A stretch of DNA of 64,000 nt from Nitrosopumilus sp. K4 (GTDB taxonomy: Archaea; Thermoproteota; Nitrososphaeria; Nitrososphaerales; Nitrosopumilaceae), in NCBI RefSeq assembly GCF_018128925.1, contig NZ_CP067007.1, forward strand, positions 186,001-250,000. The letters run 5' to 3'. The stretch's first letter is position 1; each line of letters begins with the position of its first letter. The position numbers and the translations under genes were made by a program. The notes under the pieces are model-generated. The model saw only the letters and a program-made list of their open reading frames with translations. It was not told where the DNA came from and made no database searches. Positions 7,569 to 9,643 of this stretch are shown here, piece by piece.

Positions 7569-7748
7569 TTATTCTTCTTTGTTTACTCTAGTATGATCTC
7601 CGGGATAATACTCGTCTAGCTTTTTTGAATAGCAATCTCCACATAATGGTCCGTTGATCTTCCATTCTTCCATTGGGTTGAATTGCATTTCTATTTTATC
7701 CCCGCAAATGGTGCATTTTAGTTTTAAACCCAAAGTATCATTGCTCAC
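7569..7748 (-). CDS. Small zinc-ribbon protein (59 aa)
   Basis: A short protein with two CxxC pairs (CTICGDK and CGDCYSKK) about 23 residues apart, forming a probable single zinc ribbon. GTG 7748 is chosen as start (VSNDTLGLKL); the longer frame from 7769 would add a hydrophobic stretch unlike the rest. Function unknown; such ribbons bind nucleic acid or protein partners. It lies downstream of the candidate structured RNA region but on the other strand. Confidence 0.65.
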   Translation of the reverse strand: MSNDTLGLKLKCTICGDKIEMQFNPMEEWKINGPLCGDCYSKKLDEYYPGDHTRVNKEE

Positions 7749-7795
7749 TTTAATCAATATAAAAAACATTCTGGGTTTGAACCAAAAAAATCATG

Positions 7796-7804
7796 TTAAA
7801 TAAT
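7796..7804 (+). promoter_or_regulatory. TATA-like element before candidate RNA
   Basis: TTAAATAAT on the plus strand, with its centre (about 7800) 23-26 bases before the first base of the long stem that starts at 7823. This is the spacing expected between an archaeal TATA box and its transcription start. AT-rich sequence gives many such matches by chance, so the call depends on the downstream structure. Confidence 0.35.
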
Positions 7805-7822
7805 ACTGGTTTCTAAGAATTT

Positions 7823-7918
7823 TAGGTAGCTAGTCTGACCAGTGTAAACCTCCTGCAAGATTTTTACTTGGTTAGACTACTGCCTATGGGTTTACAGCAA
7901 ATTACTGACTAGCTTTTT
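7823..7918 (+). ncRNA. Candidate structured non-coding RNA
   Basis: Between two minus-strand genes lies a plus-strand inverted repeat: TAGGTAGCTAGTCTGACCA (7823-7841) pairs with TGGTTAGACTACTGCCTA (7869-7886), 18 pairs with one bulged C (7830). Its loop contains TGTAAACCT (7843-7851), which can pair with GGGTTTACA (7888-7896). The three non-Watson-Crick positions are all G-U on the plus strand and would be A-C on the minus strand, so the RNA is probably plus-strand. A TATA-like element precedes it and a T5 run (7914-7918) follows. The last 27 bases are antisense to the 3' end of the AIPR gene. Alternatives are a bidirectional terminator or a DNA-level element. Confidence 0.4.
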
Positions 7919-9643
7919 GATTGCTAAAATCTCATCTTCTTCTTGTCTGATTTTTTTATCAACAACTCTGAGCATAGAGTCATTCCAGACATGCTGTGAA
8001 AAGAAATTGTGTTTTGTGTTGGCAAGCTCTATCTCATCATCTACAACAGTATCTTCTAGAAATTTGGTGACAATCACGTCTGTGAGCTTTAGTATTCTAG
8101 AGTTTAACTTAAAACTGCGAAAAATTGGCTCTAGTTTTCTAATGTCTCCTTTGAAATCCCCCTTTGTCTCTAGAATTTTCTTGTGTAGTATTCTAAAGTA
8201 TACTCCGACATAAAACAAAGTTGCATATCTTTTTGTCTTGTGTCCACCTTGCTTGCCATATTTTAGAGACTTTTTTGCAAATTCCTTTACAAGATAAGGA
8301 TACAACAAAATCCTGTAATCGTCTTTAAGGTTGTCATTGAAAATATCATCATACTTGCTTCCTCTTGGAAGAAATTGTGCAGGAGAACTATATGCTTCAG
8401 TGGGTCGTTGTTCAATTCCTGCAACAAGTGACTGTATTGCATCCTTTGCAACGATTACTTTTTTGTGATTGTCTGGCAAGTAATTATTGTAAGTAGAATC
8501 ACCTTCATACTCACATTGTTTTGATTTTGTTTTTGTATCAAAAGATCCTGCCTGAATTTCATAAAAATAACCACAGTTTCTTAATTGTGATTTTATTGAT
8601 TTGTGAAAGTCCATTAATGAAACAAGATCTTTTCCTCTTACTGAGTTCTGTGAGTTTCTGTACTTTGTGATGTTGTTTTGCTCTTGCTCATCATCTGCTT
8701 TTATGATGGTAACTGTCATAGAACCATCCATGTTCTTTGTCCGTTTAGAATGATCTAAAATTGAATTAGATGTCTGAGCTCCGTTGACTATTTGTGGCGC
8801 ATGCAGCTTGATCATGTTCTCCCCTAATTCCTCAAAGTCACTTACTACAATTGTAATTCCGTTGTTGTAATAGAAAAATTTCCCTGGATTGGTTTGAAGT
8901 GTTTCTCGCAATCCCTTGTTTACAGTTGTCTTAAACTGCATCCACTGTCTAATGTTTGATTCAAAAACATAATCTCTGTTCTTGCTTACAAAGTCTGTAA
9001 GTTCTCTTAGTTTCAAAATTCCCAGTATTGTGTTCTCATGCCTAAGCATTCTTTCTAGTTTTATTGATGATTTCTTTCCTGCTGCTGGTTTTTTGATTCT
9101 GTCCCACAACTTTTGAATGATTTTTTCAATATCAATTACCTCGACAACGTCATCGCTGTAATCTACTTCCTGATCTGTGACATAGCAGCATTTGATTTTC
9201 AGGTTTTTTTCTTTAATTTTTGTTACAAGCTGTGCAAGCTCTGGTCTCATCTTTGTAACATCTTTTGCAAGCAATCTTTTTGCATCTTCTTTGAATTTGG
9301 CAATTGCTTCCAGAGAATGTGATGTTCCGTATTTTGATTGGAATAGTCTAATGGTATTATCAGAAAAATCAACAGGGAGATAAGCGTCTATTCCTAAGTC
9401 ATTTGCACCATCAACAATTGCATCAGCTGCATCATCTTCTGTTGCCTCAAACACTCTTGTTAAAACCCACTGGAGAAAATTATTTCCCTTTTCAACGTCA
9501 CTCTTTGAATCATCTGCGTATTCTTTTATGCTCTCTTTGACGTTTTCAGAAAACCCCTCTAATGGCGGTGTGGAGTTTTTCTGAACTAGCAGGGTTTTTG
9601 ATCCTGGGATGTATTCAAGTAATCCGTTACCATTTTGAGCCAA
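7892..9643 (-). CDS. AIPR-family protein with nuclease-like N-terminus
   Basis: A 583-residue protein. The central part has the hallmarks of the AIPR (abortive phage infection resistance) family: FYYNNGITIVVSDF at about 280 and IVNGAQTSNSI at about 310. The N-terminal 130 residues contain DDAADAIVDGANDLGIDAY followed by IRLFQSKYG, which matches a PD-(D/E)xK-like core with an acidic residue, a strand and a Q-x-K. AIPR proteins occur in defence and restriction-like loci; nuclease activity here is inference. TTG 9643 is the likely start, 24 bases from TATA-like sequence shared with the divergent copper-protein gene. No restriction or methylase partner adjoins it. Confidence 0.85.
   Translation of the reverse strand: MAQNGNGLLEYIPGSKTLLVQKNSTPPLEGFSENVKESIKEYADDSKSDVEKGNNFLQWVLTRVFEATEDDAADAIVDGANDLGIDAYLPVDFSDNTIRLFQSKYGTSHSLEAIAKFKEDAKRLLAKDVTKMRPELAQLVTKIKEKNLKIKCCYVTDQEVDYSDDVVEVIDIEKIIQKLWDRIKKPAAGKKSSIKLERMLRHENTILGILKLRELTDFVSKNRDYVFESNIRQWMQFKTTVNKGLRETLQTNPGKFFYYNNGITIVVSDFEELGENMIKLHAPQIVNGAQTSNSILDHSKRTKNMDGSMTVTIIKADDEQEQNNITKYRNSQNSVRGKDLVSLMDFHKSIKSQLRNCGYFYEIQAGSFDTKTKSKQCEYEGDSTYNNYLPDNHKKVIVAKDAIQSLVAGIEQRPTEAYSSPAQFLPRGSKYDDIFNDNLKDDYRILLYPYLVKEFAKKSLKYGKQGGHKTKRYATLFYVGVYFRILHKKILETKGDFKGDIRKLEPIFRSFKLNSRILKLTDVIVTKFLEDTVVDDEIELANTKHNFFSQHVWNDSMLRVVDKKIRQEEDEILAIKKLVSNLL

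Follow-up and report, generated by a model that had tools for sequence, protein, structure and literature searches.

The sequence analysed here, a window of 64,000 nucleotides from Nitrosopumilus sp. K4, contains a long hairpin beside a gene of the AIPR family, and the question that it raises is what such an element could be for. An earlier note had proposed that the plus strand gives a structured RNA, which might alternate between folds and control the toxin-like AIPR gene. The reading favoured here, to which a probability of about 0.86 is assigned on the basis of sequence comparisons, is that the hairpin is part of a dedicated antisense RNA, encoded in trans, that would block the translation start of a zinc-ribbon gene.

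The hairpin, whose 5' arm (7823-7841, plus strand) pairs with a 3' arm at 7869-7886, lies where the earlier note had placed it and has 18 pairs, two of them G-U, with C7830 bulged. The plus-strand fold of 7796-7918 reaches -35.6 kcal/mol (z = -3.51), a value equalled by none of 200 shuffled sequences, while the minus strand of the same segment gives z = -1.69. In an alignment of 82 relatives, 92% of the cells are paired and double changes appear in 11 of the 23 pairs, the arms thus changing with compensation; the covariation score over these sequences is 0.220, versus 0.035-0.064 for slid versions. Taking this covariation into account, the hairpin is not due to chance. Two additional pairings had been indicated, one between the loop (7843-7851, TGTAAACCT) and 7888-7896 (GGGTTTACA), the other between 7829-7835 (GCTAGTC) and 7907-7913 (GACTAGC). 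Both exist in this genome, where the longest complement between the loop and the sequence downstream measures 9 nt; in the relatives, however, its mean is 5.4 nt, close to the 5.1 nt of shuffled sequences, and both pairings are peculiar to the present genome. Since they are not kept in relatives, the idea of a switch between folds, or of a pseudoknot, has been discarded. Searches against Rfam gave no family at gathering score, the best E-value (0.45, Y_RNA) being taken as chance, and neither an archaeal H/ACA nor a C/D guide RNA was matched above that score; the RNA is therefore not a described Rfam family. In one genome (G119; L033, 1473-1564) an AIPR-like sequence occupies the place of the hairpin 3' arm, through either a deletion or an assembly fault.

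A TATA box (TTAAATA, 7796-7802, plus strand) precedes the hairpin and a T5 run (7914-7918), the probable site of termination, follows it, both as previously noted. TTAAATA, TTATATA or GTAAATA is found 51-58 nt 5' of CTCCTGCA in all 114 related loci, which were chosen partly by a TATA-like box 5' of the core, a rule that excluded none of them; the background frequency of TTAAATA is 0.5% per 40-nt window. A run of at least five T, 40-110 nt 3' of CTCCTGCA, is present in 95 of the 114. When read on the plus strand, the wobbles of the hairpin comprise 246 G-U versus 20 A-C cells, and those on the start side of the duplex in trans described below 21 versus 1, these cells not being independent counts. 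The constancy of the TATA box, together with this bias, leads to the conclusion that the RNA would be read from the plus strand, and the idea of a structured plus-strand RNA with a putative promoter of its own is supported. The small RNA (predicted extent 7825-7918) should start near 7825, according to the spacing from the TATA box, and end at the T run, the hairpin being the core of a predicted plus-strand transcript of about 90 nt.

A DNA search located the whole element, as a single copy, in the present genome; every one of the five genomes of the genus carries it, and some match was obtained in 99 of 151 genomes of the family. Its core is present in at least 16 genera of this family of ammonia-oxidising archaea, and the loci have a common layout: TATA box (GTTAAATA), hairpin and a near-invariant loop (CTCCTGCAA). 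The best-conserved stretch is the loop seed CCUCCUGCA (7849-7857, plus strand), with the character of an anti-Shine-Dalgarno sequence, whose columns are invariant or nearly so and whose CUGCA is mostly unpaired. In 84,980 prokaryote genomes the exact core pattern matched 93 stretches, and among the 80 matches listed, all fold below -15 kcal/mol, 79 have the TATA box and 79 are recorded under archaeal names, nearly all from this group of archaea. The eightieth (L361), bacterial and devoid of a TATA box, was taken as chance, as were a match in contig C33 of G084 and another in G058 (L232) with neither promoter nor hairpin context. No match to the exact core pattern was obtained in viral contigs. 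Outside the family, a covariance-type model gave a low-scoring match in G208 (E 0.006), and a recurrent weak match of the model, some 9 kb away from the target gene discussed below, falls within coding sequence and was attributed to chance.

The search of the genome against itself gave one other significant match, at G000:C1:638377-638405, which coincides with the start of a gene coding for an 82-aa zinc-ribbon-like protein (G000:C1:638145-638390, minus strand), outside the window. This gene lies on the opposite strand, which makes its mRNA (UGCAGGAGGUUUACAUUGGUCAG) complementary to the small RNA. The two are unlinked on the same chromosome (193.8 kb versus 638.1-638.4 kb), and they are also distant from each other in other single-contig genomes, such as G047 and G011. 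The gene is present in 137 of the 151 family genomes and was not found outside the family among 120 genomes of the class. It is located a short distance downstream of the uL6 gene, adjoining a tRNA gene. TTG is its probable start codon, replaced by ATG in some lineages, with GGAGG a few nucleotides upstream. The protein, with two CxxC motifs, is near-invariant across the family; it has no Pfam or NCBIfam family above cut-off, its AlphaFold model has a mean pLDDT of 69, and a sequence search of the PDB returned just generic zinc fingers along with short, weak matches. A type I toxin-antitoxin system was considered and rejected, the target being a CxxC/CxxC zinc-ribbon-like protein and not a small hydrophobic toxin.

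The complementarity resides in an anti-RBS segment (UCUGACCAGUGUAAACCUCCUGCA, 7834-7857, plus strand) made up of the loop and the 5' arm of the hairpin, about 24 nt complementary to the target from its Shine-Dalgarno sequence through its start codon to codons 2-3. In the present genome all 24 positions are paired, 22 by Watson-Crick pairs and 2 by G-U. Duplex positions 1-24, compared in ungapped register in 60 genomes (1440 positions), give 1380 Watson-Crick pairs, 30 G-U pairs and 30 mismatches; shuffling the RNAs among genomes lowers the Watson-Crick count to a mean of 1324, and shuffling them within genera to a mean of 1367, with 0 of 2000 shuffles as high as the observed value in either case. 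The mismatches are concentrated at duplex positions 5-10, the target Shine-Dalgarno and its edge, without compensation.

The plus-strand complement of the target start is found in every genome holding both elements, and it follows the differences between lineages. Thus, TTG and ATG starts are matched in the RNA by CCAAUG and CCAUUG, and valine or alanine at codon 2 by CUGACC or CUGGCC. At the first base of the start codon the pairs are T-A in 42 cases and A-T in 11; at the second position of codon 2 they are T-A (28), C-G (28) and T-G (4), with no C-A, and at its third position both the codon and its RNA partner are altered in G014 and G118. In duplexes predicted for 95 genomes, at least two Watson-Crick types occur at nine positions, the double changes including the start codon (T-A/A-T), codon 2 (T-A/C-G), position -4 (T-A/C-G) and position -1 (A-T/T-A). 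Parsimony on the AIPR tree, used in place of a species tree, counts 17 double-change events, among them start-codon exchanges within genera g17 and g19; partners were taken from the predicted duplexes with unpaired cells left out, and, close to the Shine-Dalgarno edge, a small number of events hinge on a predicted bulge. The complementarity to the ribosome-binding site and start codon is maintained by covariation.

Genomes in which BLAST had missed the RNA were searched with one degenerate pattern, derived from the starts of the targets themselves and allowing up to two mismatches. A second, unlinked site was obtained in g3, g8, g16 and the remaining g17 genomes (for instance, CTGGCCAAAGTAAATCTCCTGCA for the start TTTACTTTGG in g3, and ATGGCTAATGTGGACCTCCTGCA for GGTCCGCATTGG in g8), versus 2 matches in 39 genomes for a reversed-pattern control. 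The second sites that were read have a TATA box and a hairpin, with the exception of the extra site in G058. A covariance model trained on the first 82 sequences revealed the RNA also in g5, g7, g9 and g21, where it again matches the local target start. At the genus level, RNA and target motif occur together in 16 genera and the RNA without the motif in none, while neither the RNA nor the TGCAGGAG motif is present in g2, g4, g6, g10 and g15, the g10 target having been seen in one incomplete genome. In g13, represented by a single fragmented genome (G016), the motif is present and the RNA was not found. The resulting 2x2 table (16/0/1/5) has an exact probability of about 2e-4, relatedness being ignored.

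The AIPR gene (7892-9643, minus strand; PF10592, E 2.6e-60) is the one that the earlier note had suggested to be under control of the RNA. Its 3' end is overlapped in antisense by 27 nt of the small RNA, and it adjoins the RNA in 112 of the 114 loci; a 66-aa zinc-finger-like gene (7569-7769, minus strand) is the conserved upstream neighbour. However, in G019 the RNA lies beside a tRNA and no AIPR gene is present, whereas in G007 an AIPR gene (80% identical) and the 66-aa gene are neighbours and the hairpin is missing from the space between them, the target motif being also lost; G028 likewise has AIPR without the RNA. The hairpin does not, then, always accompany AIPR genes, and AIPR can be considered just a neighbour. 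Moreover, conservation falls on the anti-RBS core and not on the overlap, and a cis-antisense regulator of AIPR is thus very improbable. Less credible still, to the point of being practically negligible, is a chance hairpin or a terminator of the AIPR gene, an idea prompted by its location just beyond the AIPR stop codon and refuted by comparative data: covariation, promoter, distribution, pairing in trans and its persistence in the genome without AIPR. The AIPR gene itself is syntenic and conserved in most of the family, with 80% identity between distant genera, and in appearance it is not a mobile defence gene.

Two other explanations accept the trans relationship and read it differently. 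The minus strand could be the functional one, carrying a second copy of the ribosome-binding site, as a leader peptide or as a decoy in the AIPR 3' UTR, the two copies staying alike through binding of the same factor. The minus strand of the anti-RBS segment does read TGCAGGAGGTTTACAYTGGTCAGA, the letters of the target start, and sequence identity in trans cannot by itself distinguish strands; nevertheless, the predicted promoter lies on the plus strand at all 114 loci, the wobbles of both hairpin and duplex favour that strand, and G019 has no AIPR gene at its RNA locus. The minus-strand reading frame, which varies from 6 to 32 codons, is not conserved, and the leader peptide was discarded on this ground, leaving this explanation with little probability. 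Somewhat more weight, although it is still unlikely, can be given to the pairing activating or protecting the mRNA, or to the mRNA acting as a sponge for an RNA with other main targets. In archaea, sRNA154 has been described as stabilising certain targets while blocking one other (PMC5867862), and the CCUCC of the loop could reach other Shine-Dalgarno sites. Against this, the pairing extends from the Shine-Dalgarno over the start codon to codons 2-3, so that initiation there would be impossible, and no further target-like site was detected in a whole-genome DNA search (E <= 1) or in a duplex scan of the window.

Returning to the antisense RNA acting on the zinc-ribbon gene, the joint evolution of RNA and target start, which extends to replacements of the start codon itself, indicates that the RNA very probably switches translation off. 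We infer that it is transcribed, binds its target in the cell and represses it, repression being preferred over activation from the position of the pairing. From its own promoter an RNA of about 90 nt would be produced and would fold into the long hairpin, exposing the anti-Shine-Dalgarno seed in its loop. This loop would contact the Shine-Dalgarno of the zinc-ribbon mRNA, whose start codon and codons 2-3 would then invade the 5' arm, giving rise to a duplex of about 24 bp covering the Shine-Dalgarno, the start codon and the first codons and leaving the ribosome blocked. Within the hairpin, CUGCA is free and CCU is partly paired, so the likely path is a first contact through UGCAG and a subsequent strand invasion of the 5' arm. 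The native duplex, computed for a 40-nt stretch of the RNA and a target start of 60 nt, is predicted at -54 kcal/mol, versus -32.6 kcal/mol for the best non-self duplex in the window (4264 stretches). RNAcofold gives a net binding of -20.6 kcal/mol after the cost of both folds; opening the hairpin is therefore costly, and a helper may be needed. An extension of this mechanism, improbable as it stands, would be a family-wide, one-to-one RNA switch, locked to a single start of translation from the ancestor shared by most family members onwards, with repression relieved by the AIPR mRNA, which is antisense to the RNA at its 3' end and may be a sponge; if true, this would link the zinc-ribbon protein with a defence-like gene.

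Long dedicated pairing is known from bacterial trans antisense RNAs, such as IstR-1/tisB, which control small membrane toxins. The present system resembles that pair in having one RNA and one mRNA encoded by separate genes, with long complementarity in the 5' region, and differs in its target, a conserved soluble-looking zinc-ribbon protein encoded near ribosomal-protein genes. Trans-encoded small RNAs of Methanosarcina mazei (sRNA162, sRNA154 through its loop 2, and sRNA41) are comparable archaeal examples: masking of the ribosome-binding site and start codon has been described for the first M. mazei target (PMC3432209), and sRNA41, like sRNA154 acting on glnA2, is reported to mask the ribosome-binding site (PMC5867862). 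Since Shine-Dalgarno and start codon would be covered here too, initiation should be blocked as in those cases (PMC5867862, PMC3432209). Compared by description, the M. mazei RNAs belong to another lineage and have other targets, some of them several each, whereas the present RNA has one evident target and a nearly perfect duplex kept across the family. A review of 2012 stated that regulatory small RNAs had been examined in no thaumarchaeon (PMC3432209), and searches of openly available papers on small RNAs in Nitrosopumilus and thaumarchaea gave no report of this RNA, which could already figure as an unnamed transcript in a dataset. Ammonia-oxidising archaea, abundant in ocean and soil, would possess an RNA family for which the target can be named, the interaction specified base by base and controls drawn from matched lineages. 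It is also a rare case in which the base of a start codon and the one opposite it in the antisense RNA have been altered jointly several times, one that is directly testable in cultured strains, and it would mark a family-specific zinc-ribbon protein as worth tight control.

Some observations concern the region upstream of the zinc-ribbon gene. A 22-bp palindrome (TTTCTAAAYTCGARTTTAGAAA), possibly a local operator, has four copies in the genome (L002; G000:C1:633634, 637828, 638482 and 638542), all within about 5 kb of this gene and two of them directly upstream, in its promoter. In g4, with genomes of 0.8 Mb (L157, L167), the target retains the promoter palindrome, but its leader and Shine-Dalgarno have disappeared together with the small RNA. 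The leader includes a conserved TTAGAC...GATCTAATA...GATC stretch; about 60-20 nt before the start (L046, minus strand), TAGAC...GATC...ATA...GATC is invariant in 26 sequences, with little covariation, and weak pairing of the small RNA with its GGTTTAC...TTAGAC part is possible.
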